64,000 nt of DNA, taken from the NCBI RefSeq assembly GCF_034259325.1, contig NZ_JAXIVS010000007.1, positions 434,001 through 498,000 on the forward strand. Reading direction: 5' to 3'. Below, piece by piece: positions 22,252 through 36,025 of this stretch. The notes beneath the pieces were generated by a model that was given only the letters and a program-made list of their open reading frames with translations, had not been told where the DNA came from and did no database searches. How positions within the stretch are numbered: position 1 is the stretch's first letter; each line of letters starts with the position of its first letter. The DNA is from Hyalangium ruber (GTDB lineage: Bacteria > Myxococcota > Myxococcia > Myxococcales > Myxococcaceae). The translations under genes and the position numbers were made by a program.

Positions 22252-23445
22252 TCAGGATGCCAGTTGGGCCTCGCGAAACAGGGCGAAGGCGCTGGTGTAG
22301 CCATGAAGGAAGGTGGTCCCTCCCACCGGGCCGATCTCTCCGTTGCAGAAGAATCCGCCCAGCGGAACGGACCCGAGCGCGCCCTCGAACAACGAGGTGT
22401 CATGGTCCGGGCGACCGTAGAGGTGCATGCCTCGGCCGAGACACGAGAAGAGCAGCGCGCCCCGAGGCGCCGCGACCTGCCCCCGCTCCTCTCGGTAGCG
22501 ATGGAGCATGCGCGTGAGGTCCTCGGCGGCCGTGCGCGCATCCCGCAGGTGGAATTGCACGGCCTGGTAGGGCTCGAGCGTCGCGCCAACGGTGATGGCC
22601 CCGGACTGGGGATCCACCCCGGCGATGTTGCGCACGAGGAAGTCCCCTTGCTGGTACTCCACCTGATCCTTCTTCATCTCGAAGCCCAGGAAGAGCGAGT
22701 GCCGGAACAGCGCCTGGTCTCGCTCATCCAGGGACTGATGGAGCTCACGCAGCACCTCGATGGGAGACCGCTCGTTGAGCTTCAGCAGCTCATTGCCCTC
22801 ACAGCGGGTGACGAGCATGGGCGTGCCGATGGGCCGACATCCCTGGGCGACGATGGAATCGACCACCACGTTCCCCATCATCGCGAGTCCCACCGCACCG
22901 GTGCGCCACGAGTTGCCCCCCAGGAACAGCCGCGTGCTTCCGGGCATACGGCTGCCGCTGGCCAGGCCCCCTACTTTCAAGGCCCCCGGGTAGGCCCGGT
23001 CGAGCCCGGCCACCAGCGCCTCGGCATCGCACGTGAATGGATCGACGACGAGCAGCAGAGAGGGCCGCGCCTCGGGAGAGATGCGCAGGAGCTGGTGCCA
23101 CGCCTCTGGCTTCTCCCCCGGCTCCGGCAGCTGGTTCATGTCCAGGTGGAACGGGACGAGCCGAACCCCAGGCAGAATCGCCCCGGTGAGGGAGAGCGCC
23201 GGCGCCCCCTCCACCTCATGGTTGGCGCCGATGATGCCCTCCCCCGAGCAGCCCACCAGCACGGCCTTGGGCAGCCGCGCATGCAGCAACTCCGCCACAT
23301 CGGCCCCCTCCACCAGGGAGGGTGAAGCGAAGGCGATGAGCAGATCCGGCTCACGGCTGCCAAGCCGAAGGCACAGCTCTTCCACGGCCTGATCCACGGC
23401 TTCCTTGAGGTTGCCGGACCGAGACAGCGCGGACGCCCACTTCAT
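22252..23445 (-). CDS. FIST-domain sensory protein
   Basis: 397 residues. The N-terminal half carries the FIST_N pattern (VLVGCSGEGIIG, GGLASGSRM) and the C-terminal half the FIST_C pattern (FLVRNIAGVDPQSGAITVG, SCLGRGMHLYG, GGFFCNGEIGPVGG). FIST domains are thought to sense small molecules in bacterial signalling; this one stands alone without a kinase or receiver. Convergent with the Ro-like gene, whose terminator separates them. Confidence 0.85.
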   Translation of the reverse strand: MKWASALSRSGNLKEAVDQAVEELCLRLGSREPDLLIAFASPSLVEGADVAELLHARLPKAVLVGCSGEGIIGANHEVEGAPALSLTGAILPGVRLVPFHLDMNQLPEPGEKPEAWHQLLRISPEARPSLLLVVDPFTCDAEALVAGLDRAYPGALKVGGLASGSRMPGSTRLFLGGNSWRTGAVGLAMMGNVVVDSIVAQGCRPIGTPMLVTRCEGNELLKLNERSPIEVLRELHQSLDERDQALFRHSLFLGFEMKKDQVEYQQGDFLVRNIAGVDPQSGAITVGATLEPYQAVQFHLRDARTAAEDLTRMLHRYREERGQVAAPRGALLFSCLGRGMHLYGRPDHDTSLFEGALGSVPLGGFFCNGEIGPVGGTTFLHGYTSAFALFREAQLAS

Positions 23446-28224: not shown

Positions 28225-28310
28225 GGGGATGTAGAGCGTTACGGAGACGCGCTGGCCTGTAGAGCCGGAGCCGCACGGCGGCCCACTGAGTTCAACTCTC
28301 AGCGTCCCCA
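28225..28310 (+). tRNA. tRNA-Tyr (GTA), class II
   Basis: Acceptor GGGGATG/CGTCCCC, anticodon loop CTGTAGA, T-arm CTGAG-TTCAACT-CTCAG, discriminator A. It keeps a long variable arm (GCCG/CGGC type), as bacterial Tyr tRNAs do. No CCA is encoded. First gene of the array. Confidence 0.8.
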
Positions 28311-28397
28311 CTTCACACAGTACCCAAGGCAGTGGCTTGTTCTCTGACAACTGAATCGCAGTGGTGAAGTTCGCCCGCCAATAATGGGGCGACAAAC

Positions 28398-28468
28398 GCC
28401 TCCGTAGCTCATTGGTCGAGCATCCGCCTCTTAAGCGGACGGTGAGGGTTCGATTCCCTCCGGGGGTA
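28398..28468 (+). tRNA. tRNA-Lys (CTT)
   Basis: Anticodon arm TCCGC-CTCTTAA-GCGGA, T-arm GAGGG-TTCGATT-CCCTC, discriminator A. Acceptor begins with a G-T wobble pair. 71 nt. The 87-bp gap before it holds no tRNA I can fold. Confidence 0.8.
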
Positions 28469-28480
28469 CTCGCAGCACAC

Positions 28481-28551
28481 GCGGGTGTCGTCTAGTGGCA
28501 AGACTCCGGTCTCCCATGCCGGCAACACGGGTTCGAGTCCCGTCACCCGCT
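28481..28551 (+). tRNA. tRNA-Gly (CCC)
   Basis: Acceptor GCGGGTG/CACCCGC perfect, loop CTCCCAT, discriminator T as expected for Gly. 71 nt. Confidence 0.85.
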
Positions 28552-28559
28552 TCACCCAT

Positions 28560-28631
28560 ACCGGGATCGTCTAACTGGCAGGATGGCGGGCTCTGACCCC
28601 GCAGGTGCAGGTTCAAAGCCTGCTCCCGGTG
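28560..28631 (+). tRNA. tRNA-Gln (CTG)
   Basis: Acceptor ACCGGGA/TCCCGGT, anticodon arm GCGGG-CTCTGAC-CCCGC, T-loop TTCAAAG, discriminator G as in Gln tRNAs. Confidence 0.85.
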
Positions 28632-28651
28632 CTCTGAAGTACGCAGCATAT

Positions 28652-28725
28652 TCGGTGGTAGCTCAACTGGCAGCAGCACGCGGCTGTTAACCGCGGGGTT
28701 GAGGGTTCGAATCCCTCCCACCGAG
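28652..28725 (+). tRNA. tRNA-Asn (GTT)
   Basis: Acceptor TCGGTGG/CCACCGA, loop CTGTTAA, T-arm GAGGG-TTCGAAT-CCCTC, discriminator G. Confidence 0.85.
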
Positions 28726-28736
28726 CTGACTCACAT

Positions 28737-28807
28737 GGCTTGTTCCGCCCGGGGCGGCGGCGGTCTGCAAAACCGTCTGGTGGCGGGTTCAACTCCCGCA
28801 CAAGCCT
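28737..28807 (+). tRNA. tRNA-Cys (GCA)
   Basis: Acceptor GGCTTGT/ACAAGCC, loop CTGCAAA, T-arm GCGGG-TTCAACT-CCCGC, discriminator T. The D-arm is compressed: CGCC/GGCG with a 6-nt loop and no spacer base before the anticodon stem. Confidence 0.8.
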
Positions 28808-28816
28808 TCACCTTCT

Positions 28817-28889
28817 GCCTCGTTCGTCTATCGGCATAGGACACCACACTCTCACTGTGGAAAGGCGGGTTCGACTCCCGCACGAGGTA
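28817..28889 (+). tRNA. tRNA-Glu (CTC)
   Basis: Acceptor GCCTCGT/ACGAGGT, anticodon arm CCACA-CTCTCAC-TGTGG, T-arm GCGGG-TTCGACT-CCCGC, discriminator A. Confidence 0.85.
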
Positions 28890-28905
28890 CTCGCAACACG
28901 TTTCA

Positions 28906-28981
28906 CGGGATGTAGCTCAGCTTGGACGAGAGCGCGCGCTTGGGGTGCGCGAGGTCGCTGGTTCGAATCCAGTCATCCCGA
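28906..28981 (+). tRNA. tRNA-Pro (GGG)
   Basis: Acceptor CGGGATG/CATCCCG with the C1-G72 pair usual in Pro tRNAs; anticodon arm CGCGC-TTGGGGT-GCGCG; discriminator A. Confidence 0.85.
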
Positions 28982-28990
28982 CTTCTTTCT

Positions 28991-29064
28991 CTGGGTGTGG
29001 CTCAGCTTGGTAGAGCGCACGGTTCGGATCCGTGAGGTCGCAGGTTCAAGTCCTGCCACCCAGA
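28991..29064 (+). tRNA. tRNA-Pro (CGG)
   Basis: Acceptor CTGGGTG/CACCCAG, anticodon arm CACGG-TTCGGAT-CCGTG, discriminator A. Confidence 0.85.
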
Positions 29065-29076
29065 CTCGTAGCACCA

Positions 29077-29147
29077 CGGGGTATGGCCCAATGGTAGGGC
29101 TCTCGTCTGATACGCGAGCGGTCCTGGTTCGATTCCAGGTGCCCCGA
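29077..29147 (+). tRNA. tRNA-Ile (GAT)
   Basis: Acceptor CGGGGTA/TGCCCCG, loop CTGATAC, T-arm CCTGG-TTCGATT-CCAGG, discriminator A. A C1-G72 pair is unusual for Ile. Confidence 0.8.
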
Positions 29148-29154
29148 CTGACTT

Positions 29155-29225
29155 GCTCTTGGATGCGATTGGATCGCAGCGCGGCCGTCTACCGCGTGAA
29201 CAGGGTTCGATTCCCTGCAGGAGCG
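29155..29225 (+). tRNA. tRNA-Asp (GTC), with C33
   Basis: Acceptor GCTCTTG/CAGGAGC and anticodon stem CGCGG/CCGCG pair well; the loop reads CCGTCTA, so the near-universal U33 is C. Discriminator G agrees with Asp. T-arm CAGGG-TTCGATT-CCCTG. Confidence 0.7.
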
Positions 29226-29241
29226 CTCGCAGCACCCTTTT

Positions 29242-29314
29242 GCCGCCTTTGCGTAGATGGTTCGCGCGCCTGATTGAAAAACAGGAGGACCCAGTTCGAT
29301 TCTGGGAGACGGCA
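29242..29314 (+). tRNA. tRNA-Phe (GAA), with stem mismatches
   Basis: Loop TTGAAAA gives GAA. There is one C-A mismatch in the acceptor (GCCGCCT/AGACGGC) and an A-A mismatch at the top of the anticodon stem. T-arm CCCAG-TTCGATT-CTGGG is perfect; discriminator A. Confidence 0.7.
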
Positions 29315-29331
29315 CTCTTGCTTCACCGTGT

Positions 29332-29399
29332 AGGCCGCGCTCCGGGAGCAGCTTGGACTCCAAATCCGGGCGTGCAGGGTTCAACTCCTTGGCGGCCTG
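29332..29399 (+). tRNA. tRNA-Trp (CCA), shortened D-arm
   Basis: Only 68 nt. Acceptor AGGCCGC/GCGGCCT is perfect and the loop CTCCAAA gives CCA, discriminator G. The linker bases 8-9 are missing and the D-loop is reduced to about three bases (GCTC-CGG-GAGC). Confidence 0.65.
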
Positions 29400-29403
29400 C
29401 CAT

Positions 29404-29476
29404 GCCCTTGTAGCTCAGCAGGAAGAGCACCGGTTTCGTAAACCGGGGGTCGTCGGTTCGAACCCGACCGAGGGCA
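29404..29476 (+). tRNA. tRNA-Thr (CGT)
   Basis: Acceptor GCCCTTG/CGAGGGC, anticodon arm CCGGT-TTCGTAA-ACCGG, T-arm GTCGG-TTCGAAC-CCGAC, discriminator A. Confidence 0.85.
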
Positions 29477-29496
29477 CTCGCAGTACCAAAGGTTTT

Positions 29497-29568
29497 GCTG
29501 CCGTGGCCGAGAGGTGAGGCACCTGAGCGCCACTCAGGACCATGCGGGTTCGAGTCCCGCCGGCAGCT
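29497..29568 (+). tRNA. tRNA-Gly (GCC), with C33
   Basis: Acceptor GCTGCCG/CGGCAGC, anticodon stem CCTGA/TCAGG perfect, loop GCGCCAC: anticodon GCC with C at position 33. Discriminator T fits Gly. Confidence 0.7.
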
Positions 29569-29572
29569 CCAT

Positions 29573-29643
29573 GGGCCCGTAGTTCAGCGGGAGAATTCTC
29601 GGTTTGCACCCGAGAGACCCGGGTTCGAATCCCGGCGGGTCCA
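29573..29643 (+). tRNA. tRNA-Ala (TGC)
   Basis: Acceptor GGGCCCG/CGGGTCC contains the G3-T70 wobble that is the Ala identity element. Loop TTTGCAC, discriminator A. Confidence 0.85.
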
Positions 29644-29670
29644 CTTGCTTCACTTGCTTCAGTTGTCTTT

Positions 29671-29744
29671 GGCTCCGTAGCTCAACGGATTAGAGCGCTC
29701 GGCTACGAACCGAGAGGCTGCAGGTTCGAATCCTGCCGGAGCCA
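29671..29744 (+). tRNA. tRNA-Arg (ACG)
   Basis: Acceptor GGCTCCG/CGGAGCC, anticodon arm CTCGG-CTACGAA-CCGAG (A34, expected to become inosine), discriminator A. Confidence 0.88.
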
Positions 29745-29752
29745 CTTGTCTT

Positions 29753-29826
29753 GCCCCTGTAGCTCAGTGGAACAGAGCGCACGGTTCCGAACCGTGAGGC
29801 CGCAGGTTCGATCCCTGCCAGGGGTA
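29753..29826 (+). tRNA. tRNA-Arg (CCG)
   Basis: Acceptor GCCCCTG/CAGGGGT, anticodon arm CACGG-TTCCGAA-CCGTG, T-arm GCAGG-TTCGATC-CCTGC, discriminator A. Confidence 0.85.
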
Positions 29827-29832
29827 CTCGAG

Positions 29833-29907
29833 GCTTCCGTAGCTCAGGGGATGAAGAGCAGGCGCGTCCTAAGCGCACGGTCGCAGGTTCAAATCCTGCC
29901 GGAAGCA
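29833..29907 (+). tRNA. tRNA-Arg (CCT)
   Basis: Acceptor GCTTCCG/CGGAAGC. The preferred fold gives loop GTCCTAA with U33 and anticodon CCT; the outermost anticodon-stem pair is a G-A mismatch. Discriminator A. Confidence 0.75.
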
Positions 29908-29921
29908 CAGCCAACGTTTCT

Positions 29922-29993
29922 TGCGGGGAGGGGCCGGACGCCCCACCGGGTCTCATACGCCTGAGCCACAGGGTTCGACTCCCTGCTCCGCAA
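29922..29993 (+). tRNA. tRNA-Met (CAT)
   Basis: Acceptor TGCGGGG/CTCCGCA, loop CTCATAC, T-arm CAGGG-TTCGACT-CCCTG. A paired first base and absence of three consecutive GC pairs below the anticodon loop point to elongator Met; a lysidine-type Ile tRNA cannot be excluded. Confidence 0.75.
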
Positions 29994-30001
29994 CTTCTCA
30001 T

Positions 30002-30074
30002 GCACGCCGAGCCAGCTGGAGACGGCGTCGGTCCCACATACCGATTTCGCTGGGTTCGATCCCCAGGGCGTGCA
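30002..30074 (+). tRNA. tRNA-Val (CAC), with C33
   Basis: Acceptor GCACGCC/GGCGTGC and anticodon stem TCGGT/ACCGA are perfect; loop CCCACAT has C33. Discriminator A. Confidence 0.7.
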
Positions 30075-30080
30075 CTCAAA

Positions 30081-30155
30081 GCCGGAGTAGCCCAACTTGG
30101 TAGAGGCGCCAGATCGAGAGTCTGGAGGTTGAGGGTTCGACTCCCTCTTCCGGCA
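30081..30155 (+). tRNA. tRNA with Leu anticodon GAG, class I, C33
   Basis: Anticodon arm CCAGA-TCGAGAG-TCTGG, T-arm GAGGG-TTCGACT-CCCTC, discriminator A. The variable region is only about five bases, whereas bacterial Leu tRNAs have a long arm. Position 33 is C. Confidence 0.65.
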
Positions 30156-30169
30156 CTGCAGAAATTCAT

Positions 30170-30243
30170 GCCGCGGTAGCCCAACTGGTAGAGGCACTGC
30201 ACTCAGAATGCAGCGAGTGCGGGTTCGAATCCCGCCCACGGCA
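30170..30243 (+). tRNA. tRNA with Leu anticodon CAG, class I
   Basis: Anticodon arm CTGCA-CTCAGAA-TGCAG, T-arm GCGGG-TTCGAAT-CCCGC, discriminator A. Short variable region; one C-A mismatch in the acceptor (GCCGCGG/CCACGGC). Confidence 0.7.
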
Positions 30244-30265
30244 CTTGTGAAGCTCCCGTAGTCCC

Positions 30266-30340
30266 GTCCGCGTGGCCCAATCGGGAGAGGCGGCTGGCTC
30301 AAACCCAGCTCAGGTGCGAGTTCGAACCTCGCCGCGGACA
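30266..30340 (+). tRNA. tRNA with Leu anticodon CAA, class I
   Basis: Acceptor GTCCGCG/CGCGGAC perfect, anticodon arm GCTGG-CTCAAAC-CCAGC, T-arm GCGAG-TTCGAAC-CTCGC, discriminator A. Again a short variable region instead of the class II arm. It ends 23 bp before the HNH start codon. Confidence 0.7.
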
Positions 30341-30363
30341 AAAATCAGAAAGGAAACCGTGTC

Positions 30364-30906
30364 ATGGAGACGCTGGTGTTGAGCCAGGCCTATGAGCCCG
30401 TCGCGCGTGTGGCATGGCAGCGCGCGATGATGCTCATCTGGCAGGGCAAGGTCGAGGTGGTCGAGGAGTACGAGGATCGCTTCGTCCGTTCGGTGACCCT
30501 CGAGATCAAGATGCCGTCGATCATCCGCTTCATGAGCTACTTCCGGCAGCGGCAGCGGGGCATCAAGTTCAGCCGGGACAACGTGTACATGCGTGACGGC
30601 TGCAAGTGCCAGTACTGCGGCAAGAAGGTGTCTCGGCCCGAGGCCACGTACGACCACGTGATTCCCCGCGCCCAGGGTGGCAAGACGACCTGGGAGAACG
30701 TGGTGATCGCGTGCGTGCCCTGCAACCAGAAGAAGGGCAACCGGACGCCGGCGAAGGCCGGGATGTTGCTGCGCATCACGCCGGTGAAGCCCAAGAGGCT
30801 GCCGGAGTCGCTGCACTTCACCTTCGGCTACGAGAAGGGCATGCCCATCTCGTGGCGGAAGTTCCTCCGTGACGTCGCGTACTGGCACACGGAGTTGGAG
30901 GAGTGA
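30364..30906 (+). CDS. HNH endonuclease embedded in the tRNA array
   Basis: 180 residues; AAGGA 9 bases before the ATG. A zinc-stabilised HNH fold is clear: CQYC (82-85), the DHV motif with H98 followed by PRAQGG, N112 in ENVV, CVPC (117-120) and N121 before KKG. Free-standing HNH nucleases cut DNA in most known cases; some target RNA or act in phage defence or mobility. The gene lies between tRNA-Leu(CAA) and the first Ser tRNA in the same orientation, so it probably shares the array transcript. Its target is unknown. Confidence 0.85.
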   Translation: METLVLSQAYEPVARVAWQRAMMLIWQGKVEVVEEYEDRFVRSVTLEIKMPSIIRFMSYFRQRQRGIKFSRDNVYMRDGCKCQYCGKKVSRPEATYDHVIPRAQGGKTTWENVVIACVPCNQKKGNRTPAKAGMLLRITPVKPKRLPESLHFTFGYEKGMPISWRKFLRDVAYWHTELEE

Positions 30907-30914
30907 GGCCCGGG

Positions 30915-31004
30915 TAAAGGGGGGTCACCAGAGGTGGTCCCCGCCACCGCTCCGCTCCGGAACGGAGCATCAGGTGGAGCGGGGGTGCGCCAGAGGCGGC
31001 CCCC
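30915..31004 (+). other. Structured intergenic segment with two related hairpins
   Basis: Two hairpins with the same AGA loop occur about 60 bp apart: GGGGTCACC-AGA-GGTGGTCCCC and GGGGGTGCGCC-AGA-GGCGGCCCCC. Between them is a third, GCTCCG-GAA-CGGAGC, enclosed by CCACC/GGTGG. The paired changes (CACC/GGTG versus CGCC/GGCG) suggest selection for RNA structure. It follows the HNH stop and precedes the Ser tRNAs. Confidence 0.5.
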
Positions 31005-31025
31005 ACCCGTAGAGCCTCCCCGCGC

Positions 31026-31061
31026 GCCGGCAGGCGGGTCCGCTGCTGCCGGCACCTTTTT
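31026..31061 (+). terminator. Terminator-like hairpin before the Ser tRNAs
   Basis: Stem GCCGGCA/TGCCGGC with an inner GCGG/CCGC helix, then ACC and six T. The last T abuts the first Ser tRNA, so it could equally be a processing or attenuation site. Confidence 0.5.
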
Positions 31062-31145
31062 GGAAGGTCAACGTCGGAGGCCGACGGCCCGTCTCGAAAG
31101 CGGTGCGAGTGCCAAGCGCTTGGGGTTCGAGTCCCCTGCCTTCCT
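31062..31145 (+). tRNA. tRNA-Ser (CGA), class II
   Basis: Acceptor GGAAGGT/GCCTTCC, loop CTCGAAA, long variable arm AGTGC-CAA-GCGCT, T-loop TTCGAGT. The discriminator reads T rather than the usual G, and one T-stem pair is mismatched. Confidence 0.7.
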
Positions 31146-31158
31146 TCTGTTGAAGTCT

Positions 31159-31243
31159 GGAGCGTGCGTGCCGGGTGGCCGGCAGCCTGGCTGGAAACCA
31201 GGAGAGCCCCATGGGGCTCGTGGTTCGACTCCACCTCGCTCCG
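31159..31243 (+). tRNA. tRNA-Ser (GGA), class II
   Basis: Acceptor GGAGCGT/TCGCTCC (six pairs), anticodon arm CCTGG-CTGGAAA-CCAGG, strong variable arm GAGCCC/GGGCTC, discriminator G. Confidence 0.8.
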
Positions 31244-31253
31244 TAGTTGGATT

Positions 31254-31341
31254 GGAAGAGTGAACTGGTGATGGCACCAGGCCCCGTTGCTAGCGGGTGC
31301 GGACCGGCTCCCGGTCTGAGGTTCGAGTCCTCCGCCTTCCG
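31254..31341 (+). tRNA. tRNA-Ser (GCT), class II
   Basis: Loop TTGCTAG, variable arm GACCGG-CTC-CCGGTC, T-loop TTCGAGT, discriminator G. The acceptor GGAAGAG/GCCTTCC has two mismatches at its inner end. Confidence 0.65.
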
Positions 31342-31412: not shown

Positions 31413-34223
31413 ATGGCGACCAGGAAGAGCGAGGACAACGAGCGACTCATCGACCGCGACCTGACCGCGCTCGCGCGGGACGGAAAGCTGCCGCCCGCGC
31501 ACGGCGTGGACTCGGCCGTGGCGGAGGTGTTGGGACTGCTCGCCCGAGGCGGCAAGCACCCACTGCTGTCCGGAGATCCGGGCGTGGGCAAGAGCGCGCT
31601 CGTCCAGGAGGTGGCCCGGCGCATCGCCGAAGGCCGCGTGGACGCGGCGCTGGCCCAATCCCGAATGGTGGAGGTGTCCGCCGCCAACATCCTGGCGCGC
31701 AGCACTCAGCGCCAGGCCGCCGAGAGCTTCGAGGAGCTGCTTGGTCACCTGAGCCGGCTCCCCTGCCCCATCGTCTACATCCGCGATTTGCCCCTGGCGC
31801 TGGGCGGGCCGCTGGCCCCCGTGGCAATTCGTGCCCTTCGCACGGGGGGCATCCGCTTCATCTTCGAGACCGAGCCCAAGCGCGTGCAGGAACTGCTGCG
31901 CGCCGATGAAGCTCTGGCCGAACGGCTCCACCTCATTCCTCTTCAAGAGCCTCCGCTGGAACGCTCCCGGTGGGTCCTTGGCCGCGTGGCCGAGGAGCTG
32001 GAGCGCGAGATGCGGCTGCCCATTGATCCGGCGGCGTGCGACCTGGCGCTGCGCCTGTCGGCCAAGTTCCTCCTGGCCCAGCGCATGCCGCGCAAGGCCA
32101 TCGAGCTGCTCAAGGAAACGGCCGCCGAGGCGGCGAGCGCGGCCCGGGACCGTGTAGGCCCCGAGGACGTACTCACCCGCTTCTGCGCCGCCACGCGCCT
32201 GCCACGCTTCGTGGTGGACGACGCGATGCCTCTGGACCTCGAGGAGACGGAGCGATTCTTCGGTGAGCGACTGCTCGGGCAGACGGATGCGGTGGCCGCG
32301 GTGCTGCGCTCGGTGGCCCTGCTCAAAGCGGGCCTGAATGACCCGCGCCGTCCGTTGGGAGTGTTCCTCTTCGCTGGTCCCACGGGCGTGGGCAAGACGC
32401 AGCTCGCCAAGCTCCTGGCCGAGTACCTCTTTGGCTCCGCCGACAGGCTGGTGCGCCTCAACATGGCGGACTTCCCCAACGACGGCGACGAGAGCGTTCC
32501 CTTCGGCGCCTCGTGGGCTCCCGCCTTGGAGACCAAGCGCGGCGAGCTGACCAACCTGCTCGACGGCAAGGTATTCACCGTGTTGCTGTTGGACGAGTTC
32601 GAGAAGGCCGCGCGAAGCGTCCACGACCGCTTCCTTCAGCTCTTCGACGAAGGCACCTTCGTCAACGGCGCTGGGGAGCAGGTCTCCTGCAACAACACAC
32701 TCATCGTGGCGACATCCAACGTCGGCGCGGAGGTCTACCGCGAGCCAGCCCTGGGCTTCGCTGGCAATCGCCGGGAGCATGAGCTGCTCAGCGAGGTGGA
32801 CCGGCGCATCACCGAAGCCTTCCGTCCGGAGTTCCTCAACCGCTTCGACGCCATCTGCCACTTCAAGCCGCTGACGAAGGTGGAAATCCGGAAGATCGCC
32901 CAGCGCGAGGTGGGCCGCGTGCTGGAGCGCGAGGGTATTCGTGCGCGTGGACTGGATGTCGAGGTAACGCCCGAGGTGGTGGACCTGCTCGTGGAGCGTG
33001 GCTACTCACCTCAATTCGGTGCGCGCTACCTGCAGCGGGAGATCGAAAAGACGCTCACCGCCGCGCTCGCGGTGGAGATCGCTCGCCGGCCGCTACGGCC
33101 CGGCACACCCGTGCGCGTGGAAGCCCGCGCTGGAAGCAAGGTGGTCGCCGTGGCCGAGCCGCTGCCTGCTCCGCGTGAGGCGACGGCGCAGCTCTCTCTG
33201 CCCACTCCGAAGGCGGCGGCCGTCAAGCGCCGGCTGGACCGCAAGTCGCTGCTGCACGAGATGGACCGGCTGGTGGGTCGAGCCCGTTCGCTCTCCATGC
33301 TCGCGGATCGGCCCCAGCTCGAGGAGCGACGCAACCAACTCCTGGCCGAGACCCAGGCCCCCAACTTGTGGGACGACCCGGAGCACGCGGCGGTCACCCT
33401 GCGAGCCTTCCGCACGGTGGAGGCACAGATCAACGAGTTGGAGCGGCTGGAACAGGCCGCCACCTTCGCGCGGCGGCTGGTGCGTGAGGCGAAGAACGAG
33501 GTGCAGCTCGCGTCCGCGGCGAAGCAGGTGGAGGACTTGGCGCGTGAGGTGCAAATGGCCGAGGCGCTCAATGCGTCGGGCGCCACCGCGAATGACAACG
33601 AGGCGCTGGTGGACATCTGCGCCAGCGACTCGATGGAGGCCCAGGACGCATGGGTGCAAGAGCTGGCAACCATGTACCTCGGCTGGGCACAGAAGCGCGG
33701 CTACGAAGCCATGCTGGTGGCTGAGGCGGAGGATCCCGCCCGCGTGGTCGTGCGCATCGCGGGGCCTGGCGCCTACGGCTTCCTGGCAGGCGAGGCCGGC
33801 ATGCACCGGCGTATCGAGGACGAGAAGCGACAGCGCGCTTATGTCCGTGTGCATCGGGGCGGATTGCCCGAGAACCTGGTGAACCTGGAGGTGGAGGGTC
33901 GCCCCGTGAAGCAGCATGAGGGCTCCTTCCTGGAACGCGTGCGCACGGAGGTGACCGTGAAGGACTCCTCCACGGGTCGGATGCTCACCCTGACGGGCTC
34001 GGGCGAGCTGGATGAGATGAAGGACCTCGCCGCACGCGTGGTGTCCGGCCAGGGCGCCAGCACCGATGAGGCTCGCCGGTACTACGTGGCCCGTGGTGCA
34101 CGGGTGGAGGACCCTCGTACCGGCGCCGGGACCCCTCGCGTGAAGGACGTACTGCGCGGCGACCTGGACCTCTTCATCGCGGCCTGGATCTCTCGTCCCC
34201 CTCCCGAACCGGTCACCACCTGA
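31413..34223 (+). CDS. ClpA/ClpB-like double AAA+ ATPase fused to a GGQ-less release-factor-2-like module
   Basis: 936 residues from the ATG at 31413. D1: Walker A GDPGVGKS (54-61) but a degenerate Walker B ending IRDL (120-126). D2: Walker A GPTGVGKT (322-329), Walker B LLLDEFEK (391-398), TSN sensor (434-436), arginine-finger region FLNRF (474-478) and GAR sensor 2 (536-538), as in ClpA/ClpB. Residues about 608-927 align in order with RF2: LWDDPE (652-657), AQDAWVQELATMYLGWAQ (743-760), GPGAYGFLAGEAGMHR (784-799) and the tail RYYVARGARVEDPRTG (889-904). The GGQ peptide-release loop and the SPF stop-codon motif are both absent. A role at the ribosome using unfoldase power is likely inference. 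It ends the tRNA-array gene run. Confidence 0.85.
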   Translation: MATRKSEDNERLIDRDLTALARDGKLPPAHGVDSAVAEVLGLLARGGKHPLLSGDPGVGKSALVQEVARRIAEGRVDAALAQSRMVEVSAANILARSTQRQAAESFEELLGHLSRLPCPIVYIRDLPLALGGPLAPVAIRALRTGGIRFIFETEPKRVQELLRADEALAERLHLIPLQEPPLERSRWVLGRVAEELEREMRLPIDPAACDLALRLSAKFLLAQRMPRKAIELLKETAAEAASAARDRVGPEDVLTRFCAATRLPRFVVDDAMPLDLEETERFFGERLLGQTDAVAAVLRSVALLKAGLNDPRRPLGVFLFAGPTGVGKTQLAKLLAEYLFGSADRLVRLNMADFPNDGDESVPFGASWAPALETKRGELTNLLDGKVFTVLLLDEFEKAARSVHDRFLQLFDEGTFVNGAGEQVSCNNTLIVATSNVGAEVYREPALGFAGNRREHELLSEVDRRITEAFRPEFLNRFDAICHFKPLTKVEIRKIAQREVGRVLEREGIRARGLDVEVTPEVVDLLVERGYSPQFGARYLQREIEKTLTAALAVEIARRPLRPGTPVRVEARAGSKVVAVAEPLPAPREATAQLSLPTPKAAAVKRRLDRKSLLHEMDRLVGRARSLSMLADRPQLEERRNQLLAETQAPNLWDDPEHAAVTLRAFRTVEAQINELERLEQAATFARRLVREAKNEVQLASAAKQVEDLAREVQMAEALNASGATANDNEALVDICASDSMEAQDAWVQELATMYLGWAQKRGYEAMLVAEAEDPARVVVRIAGPGAYGFLAGEAGMHRRIEDEKRQRAYVRVHRGGLPENLVNLEVEGRPVKQHEGSFLERVRTEVTVKDSSTGRMLTLTGSGELDEMKDLAARVVSGQGASTDEARRYYVARGARVEDPRTGAGTPRVKDVLRGDLDLFIAAWISRPPPEPVTT

Positions 34224-34384: not shown

Positions 34385-36025
34385 ATGCTCCACGTGATTC
34401 CTCTGGGAGGACTGGGCGAGATTGGCCTCAACGCCATGGTGATCGCCTGCCGTGGGGAGATGCTCCTCATCGACGCCGGGCTGATGTTCCCCTCGGAGTC
34501 CGCCCCGGGCGTGGACATCATCGTCCCGGACTTCACCCACATCCGGCAGAATGCCGCCCAGCTCAAGGGCATCGTCATCACCCATGGGCACGAGGACCAC
34601 ATGGGCGCCCTCCCCTACCTGCTCAGCGAGGTGCCCGTGCCCGTCTATGGCACCCGCTACACCCTCGCCATGGCCCGCAACCGGCTGGACGAGCTGGGCG
34701 TCGTCGCCGACCTGCATGAGATCGAACCGCGCACACCCTTCCCCGTGGGCACCGTCTTCTCCGTGGAGGCAAGCCGCGTCACCCACACCGTGCCGGATGC
34801 CGTGGGCTACATCGTCCGTACCCCCGAAGGCACCGTCATCCACACCGGCGATTTCAAGCTGGACCCCGATCCCATTGACGGCCTGCGCACCGACCTCGAG
34901 CGCTGGGGCGAGGCGGGAGAGCAGGGCGTCCTCTGCCTCCTGTCCGACTCCACCAACTCGGAGTACACCACCGAGACGGGCAGCGAGCGCATCGTCGAGC
35001 AGACCTTCGACCGCCTCTTCCGCGAGGCCCAGGGCCGCATCGTCGTGGCTCTCTTCGCCTCCAACCTCCACCGCGTGCGCACCGTGCTCAAGCTCGCGGA
35101 ACAGCTCGGGCGCAAGGTGGCCCTCCAGGGCCGCAGCATGACGCGCAACGTGGAGATGGCGCGGCAGCTCGGCTATCTCGACGTACCCGAGAACCTCTTC
35201 GTGCCCCTGGACGCCGTACCCGGTCTGGCCCCCGGTCGGGTCATCCTCCTGTCCACGGGCGCCCAGGGCGAAGCGCGCGCCGGCCTCTCTCAAATCGCCG
35301 CCGGCAACGGTCCCGTGAGGCTGGATCCCGGGGACATGGTCATCCTCAGCTCCCGCCCCATCCCCGGCAATGAGCGCTCGGTAGGTGCCCTGCTCGATCA
35401 GCTCCATTGGACGGGCGCCCGCATCGTCTATGCCCAGGTGGAGCCTGGCGTCCATGTCTCCGGACACGCCAGCAAGCCTCAACAGCGCCGCGTCCTCGAG
35501 CTCGTCCGTCCGCGCCACTTCGTCCCCATCCACGGAGAGCTGCGCCACCTCCACCGCCACCTGTCCACCGCCCGCGAGGCGGGGCTCGCTCCCGAACAGC
35601 TTCTGCTGGCCCAGGATGGTGACCTCCTCACCTTCGAGGAGGGCCAGGGGCGCTTCGCCGGCAGCGTTCCGGTGGGCCGCATCCACAAGGACCTCTACAG
35701 CGGGGCCATGGTGTCACCCGAGGCCCTTCAGGAACGCACCAAGCTGGCCGAGACCGGGGTGGTGGTGGCCGCCCTCGTCATCAACCGCTCCTCGCTGGAG
35801 CTGATGGCCGGGCCCCAGCTCTCTGGCCATGGGCTGTCCCTGGATGAGCAGGTTCAACTGCCCCGAGTGGCTGAAGAGGCTCGAAACCTCTTCCTCCAGC
35901 TCTCCCCACAGTTGCGCGGGGATGACGCCTTGGTGCGAGAAGAGCTGACCCGTGCCGTTCGTAGGGCCTTCAAGCTCTTCACCGCCAAGCGCCCCCTGGT
36001 GGTGCCCATGGTCGTCAAGGTGTGA
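34385..36025 (+). CDS. rnj: Ribonuclease J
   Basis: 546 residues. Metallo-beta-lactamase/beta-CASP architecture: THGHEDHMG zinc motif near residue 65, HTGDFKLD, then SGHAS and IHGELRHL in the C-terminal beta-CASP part. RNase J is a 5'-to-3' exonuclease and endonuclease that matures and degrades RNA. The gene starts 161 bp after the AAA+/RF2-like gene and is followed by yajQ 17 bp later. It may be a core gene that happens to flank the island. Confidence 0.92.
   Translation: MLHVIPLGGLGEIGLNAMVIACRGEMLLIDAGLMFPSESAPGVDIIVPDFTHIRQNAAQLKGIVITHGHEDHMGALPYLLSEVPVPVYGTRYTLAMARNRLDELGVVADLHEIEPRTPFPVGTVFSVEASRVTHTVPDAVGYIVRTPEGTVIHTGDFKLDPDPIDGLRTDLERWGEAGEQGVLCLLSDSTNSEYTTETGSERIVEQTFDRLFREAQGRIVVALFASNLHRVRTVLKLAEQLGRKVALQGRSMTRNVEMARQLGYLDVPENLFVPLDAVPGLAPGRVILLSTGAQGEARAGLSQIAAGNGPVRLDPGDMVILSSRPIPGNERSVGALLDQLHWTGARIVYAQVEPGVHVSGHASKPQQRRVLELVRPRHFVPIHGELRHLHRHLSTAREAGLAPEQLLLAQDGDLLTFEEGQGRFAGSVPVGRIHKDLYSGAMVSPEALQERTKLAETGVVVAALVINRSSLELMAGPQLSGHGLSLDEQVQLPRVAEEARNLFLQLSPQLRGDDALVREELTRAVRRAFKLFTAKRPLVVPMVVKV

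Follow-up and report, generated by a model that had tools for sequence, protein, structure and literature searches.

A Clp-type ATPase joined to an RF2 fold without GGQ and SPF in Hyalangium ruber, a candidate ClpP-docking machine with a release-factor-derived arm

Introduction

What would a bacterium do with a release factor that has lost the loops for release and decoding and is carried at the end of a Clp-type ATPase? This question is raised by a gene of Hyalangium ruber that lies within a 64,000-nucleotide stretch of contig NZ_JAXIVS010000007.1 (positions 434,001 to 498,000; hereafter the window) and encodes two Clp-type AAA+ modules, D1 and D2, followed by a complete fold of release factor 2 (RF2). 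Few bacterial proteins are as constrained as release factors, and here one keeps its fold after losing the loops that serve release and decoding. A preliminary description, made from the sequence, had read the gene as an AAA+ unfoldase joined to an RF2-like module and had proposed that the module enters ribosomes, where the unfoldase pulls out a stalled nascent chain, transfer RNA (tRNA) or factor. We propose instead that the fusion is a ClpP-docking AAA+ ATPase derived from ClpA/ClpC in which a release-dead RF2 replaces the N-domain as targeting domain, a reading for and against which we find the balance about even.

Results

One reading frame carries Clp and RF2 profiles

The predicted protein matches both families in succession. 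Pfam assigns AAA_2 to residues 313-481 (2e-36), ClpB_D2-small to residues 487-569 (4e-15) and PCRF to residues 637-799 (2.1e-16), and NCBIfam assigns ClpA to residues 15-570 (6e-85) and prfB to residues 623-800 (5.6e-26, against merely 1e-8 for prfA). A phmmer search of the PDB with residues 1-598 returns ClpC, ClpB and ClpA, and one with the C-terminal part returns RF2 (6.5e-20), the tail being aligned separately. The join that the preliminary description had placed here is thus borne out by the open reading frame and its profiles, as are its finer points: the degenerate D1 Walker B (VYIRDL) beside intact D2 ATPase motifs, the likeness to RF2 from coiled coil to tail, and the loss of GGQ and SPF, from which it had expected that no peptide would be released at stop codons. 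The evidence for each is given below and the coordinates are collected in Table 1. Three features that it does not mention are added here: the [LIMV]GF of D2, the loss of the D1 pore loop together with the replaced pore motif of D2, and a second Clp-like family with an RF2-derived C-terminus. Homologues of the fusion occur in 87 of 195 Myxococcota genomes, and homologues have the start MATRK/MAKKK in common.

An intact D2 with a ClpP-type loop

The fusion has no Clp N-domain; it begins at D1, and the ClpA profile is matched from position 173 on. The N-domain of ClpA receives adaptors. Across homologues D1 keeps its Walker A (G[DE]xGVGK[ST]) and shows YIRDL or similar where the catalytic DE is expected, and motif comparison among them found no KYRG aromatic pore loop in D1. 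D2 conserves Walker B (LLLDEF), the arginine finger (FLNRFD) and sensor 2 (GAR). In place of GYVG, the pore site of D2 reads FGxxWAxx or a variant of it, with the tryptophan invariant. The suggestion that the protein pulls as an unfoldase therefore stands in part: D2 has intact ATPase motifs, and the canonical pore-1 motif is present in neither ring.

D2 also carries an [LIMV]GF tripeptide. It aligns with the LGF of mycobacterial ClpC1 at the ClpP-docking position, two ClpA proteins encoded by the host show IGF and MGF there, and a ClpP-type loop is absent from the host ClpB in the alignment with the fusion D2. ClpP docking is favoured because the tripeptide is found in all 50 homologues compared, aligns to ClpC1 and host ClpA, and is absent in ClpB. 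The source genome, of 10.8 Mb, holds three ClpP genes. A full-length AlphaFold2 model has a mean predicted local distance difference test score (pLDDT) of 79.3 and a predicted template modelling score (pTM) of 0.45, so that the placing of the parts relative to each other is unreliable; its structural matches are ClpC, ClpC-ClpP complexes and ClpB.

A complete RF2 fold stripped of its functional loops

Residues 598-936 were modelled by AlphaFold2 with 25 family members (mean pLDDT 79.9). RF2 and RF1 structures are the top Foldseek matches of this model, and the best VIA-align match is 1gqe, E. coli RF2 in its free form (Z 22.9, 4.5 Å over 313 residues, model 13-333 on 1gqe 4-365), so that the C-terminal part matches the whole of RF2. 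Alignment with true RF2s, the host's own included, defines three deletions, at the SPF, GGQ and switch loops, and the GAGGTE motif of RF2 is replaced. Neither GGQ nor SPF is restored at its site in any of 53 distinct aligned homologues; chance GGQ tripeptides occur off-site in three, two within the switch-loop remnant (L084, L094) and one in the linker that precedes the module (L050). The two outcomes by which the preliminary description said it would be refuted, a C-terminal part unlike RF2 in structure and a GGQ loop regained at the same site in homologues, were thus not obtained. It is accordingly predicted that the protein releases no peptide at stop codons.

Counted against seven RF2 sequences, the AYGFL..GxHR segment keeps 9 of 11 RF2-conserved residues, domain 3 keeps 5 of 26 and the SPF region 2 of 18. 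Beside the deletions, the fold, WDDP, the GxYGxLxxExGxHR segment and the DPRTG tail persist. Charge has also shifted: the mean of domain 1 moves from -9.4 in 57 release factors to +1.1 in the module family, and that of the tail from 0.2 to 1.9. Domain 3 has a net charge of +6 in the host RF2 and -2 in this module, a clear difference, whereas its family mean of -0.3 differs little from the +1.4 of the wider set of 57; as an argument against ribosomal RNA binding, domain 3 charge is therefore a hint, clear against the host RF2 and weak against the wider set.

These features bear on the proposal that the RF2-shaped part docks stalled or terminating ribosomes while the AAA+ ring extracts a nascent chain, tRNA or factor. 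Domain 1 and the domain 2/4 body would then make the contact, with neither decoding nor release taking place, and the protein would be a bacterial counterpart of Cdc48-Vms1 or Dom34-ABCE1. The complete fold, with WDDP and tail conserved, fits such docking, and there are precedents: the release-factor paralogue Dom34 acts on ribosomes without a GGQ, and in Vms1 a release-factor fold is linked to Cdc48, an AAA+ ATPase, according to the release-factor sections of a published census (PMC6514570). Against it stand the loss of SPF, GGQ, GAGGTE and the switch loop, the passage of domain 1 from strongly acidic to neutral and a domain 3 no longer basic as in the host RF2. Since the elements lost are those of decoding and release, their absence speaks against the canonical A-site mode and not against every ribosome contact. 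We regard ribosome extraction as possible but unlikely, and the ribosome entry put forward in the preliminary description is so far not supported.

The same losses weigh on the idea that the fusion is a decoy or regulator of termination, its RF2-like part rivalling RF2 for RF3, PrmC or the stalk base and being reset by ATP. The whole RF2 fold is retained and RF3 is encoded in the genome, but the GGQ loop, which is the modification target of PrmC, and the RF2-like surface charges are gone, and we consider this highly improbable.

Distribution and selection

Of the 195 Myxococcota genomes searched, 87 contain the module, 86 of them from Myxococcaceae and the remaining one from a neighbouring family; the same search listed ten further Myxococcaceae genomes without it. 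The Clp-RF2 architecture is fixed throughout the Myxococcaceae. In the genomes without a fusion, no stand-alone AAA half rose above ordinary Clp similarity, and that candidate was dropped. A GTDB-wide scan with two short peptide patterns, which diverged relatives could escape, recovered the module, scoring above true RF2s, only in Myxococcales. A Foldseek search of BFVD gave no convincing viral match to the module.

With its counterpart in Hyalangium versicolor the module shares 92% identity. In the tree the modules group together with 100/100 support, and their single, long-stemmed clade lies outside the tested RF2s and RF1. As it has no clear sister, we rejected a placement within one RF2 lineage. 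Nonsynonymous divergence (dN) is 0.09-0.19 in the module and 0.03-0.06 in D2, and synonymous divergence (dS) 0.61-0.92 and 0.48-0.67, respectively. With dN well below dS in both, purifying selection acts on D2 and, less tightly, on the module.

One metagenome-assembled genome (MAG; L060/L092) carries an RF-like module without an AAA part (L060:8091-9281) in a mostly open frame between xerC and hslVU. Just upstream, in a different frame, MARKRSATAASPERDLTELARAG may be what remains of the former N-terminus. This suggests either that the motor was lost or that the assembly is at fault.

A second Clp family with an RF2-derived C-terminus

The nearest Clp-like matches of the fusion in its own genome lie on contig C6 (~204.9-214.0 kb, G000; L064:1874-11000, - strand), as three overlapping genes in tandem. 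Starting from these, searches reached p3-type proteins of other Myxococcaceae. Three overlapping Clp-like ATPase genes form one operon in many Myxococcaceae, among them L214:5240-14345 (-), L215:6291-15386 (+), L224:11248-18001 continued by L225:3-2420 (+), and L211:10374-18000 (-). By their C-termini, the p3-type gene comes first, with an RF2-derived region without GGQ; that of the second is degenerate and the third has none. The products could form a hetero-oligomeric ring.

One p3-type protein (G025) matches the prfB profile at 1.1e-6 and RF2 by hhalign at 6.6e-9, and with its relatives it shows FW(T/E)(D/E)..LA, GExGxHRF and a DLRT tail and no GGQ. Proteins of this type occur in 41 of the 195 genomes, two of them outside the Myxococcaceae, in two other Myxococcota families (L226:1185-4577, -, G070; L227:3957-7550, +, G075), and the join of Clp and RF2 is therefore not limited to the Myxococcaceae. 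In the source genome, p2 and p3 have only the short motif GPGVxxFxEGExGLH in common with the fusion module (hhalign 1.1e-5 and 0.0013, respectively) and give no hhalign match to RF2; homology of their C-termini to the module is for this reason only likely. The C-terminal Clp paralogue p2 had no convincing match in viral contigs. In the AAA tree the fusion and p3 families stand apart from ClpA, ClpB and each other on long branches, and the fusion may have arisen once or twice. Because a second Clp-like family bears its own RF2-derived, GGQ-less C-terminus, the RF2-derived arm is a recurring accessory domain of Clp-like ATPases.

This family bears on two of the alternatives. That domain 3 is largely missing from it counts against ribosome extraction. 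It favours the view that the RF2 fold is a scaffold unrelated to translation, serving a Clp-like ATPase as a regulatory or oligomerisation arm and retained solely for its shape, as the three-gene operons of this family have no evident translation genes adjoining them at the loci examined. The scaffold view also draws on the loss of RF2's translation-factor surface motifs, the changed charges and the faster evolution of the module than of the AAA part. Yet the module has 54 columns without variation among 25 sequences, with arginines outside the core and the DPRTG/TPRxK tail among them, which suggests a specific surface, and we judge a mere scaffold quite unlikely.

Genomic context

The gene follows a large tRNA array that contains an HNH nuclease gene. 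Longer or shorter, this arrangement recurs in Myxococcus, Corallococcus, Archangium and Hyalangium. Adjacency of the fusion to a tRNA array in several genera is a point for ribosome extraction and its disappearance in deep relatives a point against it. Downstream lie RNase J, YajQ and RimO. We rejected these as functional partners, their adjacency being confined to close genera (with a gap in Corallococcus) and missing in Archangium-type and deep MAG relatives. The compared loci of the deep MAG relatives share no neighbour of the fusion, and no fixed operon partner was seen across the loci compared.

The source genome encodes RF1, RF2, RF3, SmpB, an ArfB-like protein and an NFACT protein. With all of these present, the fusion replaces no missing factor, and a role as stand-in for an absent rescue system was rejected. 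An anti-phage role was likewise set aside, PADLOC matches having hit the AAA parts only. Elsewhere in the window, a FIST-domain sensor protein (FIST N and C) is encoded at 22252-23445 on the - strand.

Table 1. Features of the fusion gene and its surroundings, in window coordinates
Feature	Position	Strand	Residues	Remarks
Whole Clp-RF2 fusion gene	31413..34223	+		936 aa; ATG 31413, stop 34223
D1 AAA+ module	31449..32147	+	13-245	Degenerate; no Clp N-domain before it; alignment to ClpC/ClpA structures, motif table
D1 Walker A, GDPGVGKS	31572..31595	+	54-61	Kept
D1 Walker B site, PIVYIRDL	31767..31790	+	119-126	Catalytic DE absent in all homologues, as is the upstream KYRG pore loop
D2 AAA+ module	32250..33122	+	280-570	Complete ATPase by motifs; profiles, alignment to ClpC/ClpA structures
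D2 Walker A, GPTGVGKT	32376..32399	+	322-329	49/49 homologues
D2 pore-1 site, FGASWAPAL	32502..32528	+	364-372	GYVG replaced; Trp 368 invariant
D2 Walker B, TVLLLDEF	32577..32600	+	389-396	
ClpP-docking tripeptide, LGF	32751..32759	+	447-449	[LIMV]GF in 50/50
RF2-derived module	33240..34202	+	610-930	Profiles, phmmer, AlphaFold2, structure alignment
RF2 domain 1, helical	33240..33581	+	610-723	TQAPNLWDDP motif
SPF-loop deletion junction	33816..33821	+	802/803	~6 residues gone
GGQ-loop deletion junction	33909..33914	+	833/834	~7 residues gone
Switch-loop deletion junction (RF2 domains 3/4)	34059..34064	+	883/884	~20 residues gone
RF2-type tail, EDPRTGAGTPRVKDVLRGDLDLFIAAWIS	34107..34193	+	899-927	Most conserved stretch of the module
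Array of 26 tRNA genes (context)	28225..31341	+		Just upstream
HNH nuclease gene (context)	30364..30906	+		Within tRNA array; frequent neighbour of the fusion in related genera
RNase J gene (context)	34385..36025	+		Downstream; adjacency in close genera only

Discussion

We propose that the fusion works as a ClpP-docking ATPase with an RF2-derived arm. A ring would be built through D1 and D2, with D1 binding ATP in a chiefly structural capacity and D2 hydrolysing it to power movement through a pore whose Trp loop is non-canonical, and the [LIMV]GF loops would dock ClpP. The RF2-derived arm, fixed at the D2 end, would recruit a substrate or adaptor, its partner perhaps one of the contacts of RF2, such as the stalk base, RF3, or terminating or stalled complexes, and the recruited partner would then be remodelled or degraded. 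Ring formation, docking itself and the role of the arm are steps that we infer. The conserved ClpP loop points to degradation over simple extraction.

Several considerations weigh against this proposal. Both pore-1 motifs, that of D1 and that of D2, are altered, and threading may for that reason be weak or absent. The end of D2 is the ClpP-facing side in known Clp rings, so an arm placed there could hinder docking. Finally, the module without a motor in one MAG (L060/L092) may indicate that the module can act alone.

A ClpP-docking ATPase could also work at the ribosome. The release-dead RF2 would then dock the Clp ring and ClpP on ribosomes or termination complexes, where stuck material would be extracted and degraded; we rate this combination as unlikely. 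If true, one bacterial polypeptide would do the job of Cdc48 with Vms1 or of ABCE1 with Dom34.

The Clp and RF2 halves belong to known families; their join is unusual. The open-access literature searched does not describe a Clp-RF2 fusion. The release-factor sections of the census leave it unmentioned (PMC6514570), and for M. xanthus another paper mentions just eight clpA/B/C copies (PMC11423568). Our data suggest that a release factor has been recycled as the targeting arm of a protein-degrading machine. If the arm binds the translation machinery, a single protein would link mimicry of a termination factor to ATP-driven proteolysis; if it does not, a translation factor would plainly have been turned into a protease targeting domain. 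In both cases the fusion is a well-defined protein, open to experiment in model myxobacteria.

Each half can be set beside its relatives. The fusion shares with ClpA and ClpC the D1-D2 order, a complete D2 and the ClpP-type [LIMV]GF loop, and ClpC, ClpC-ClpP and ClpB are its best structural matches. It differs in lacking the N-domain, the DE of the D1 Walker B and the D1 pore loop, in the replacement of GYVG in D2 and in its RF2-derived C-terminus. With RF2 (prfB) the module has in common the whole fold, the WDDP of domain 1, the AYGFL..GxHR segment and the DxRTG tail, but it lacks SPF, GGQ, GAGGTE and the switch loop and is joined to a Clp ATPase. The p3-type family likewise combines a Clp-like D1-D2 with a C-terminal RF2-derived region without GGQ, and differs in forming a separate AAA clade, in its N-terminal extension, in having lost most of domain 3 and in being encoded beside two further Clp-like proteins.

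Release-factor paralogues in non-standard roles are known. ArfB and PrfH, bacterial members of the superfamily with roles outside normal termination, are listed among the bacterial release-factor variants of the census (PMC6514570). They resemble the module in having left the standard role, but both have GGQ and neither has domain 1 or an ATPase fusion, whereas the module is the reverse. Analogies come from another fold. Vms1/ANKZF1 with Cdc48/p97 likewise pairs a release-factor fold with an ATPase, and Dom34/Pelota is likewise a release-dead paralogue, as those sections describe (PMC6514570). Vms1 and Dom34 have the unrelated aeRF1 fold and separate partner proteins, and in their case a role on the ribosome is known; in the fusion an RF2 fold and its ATPase share one polypeptide.
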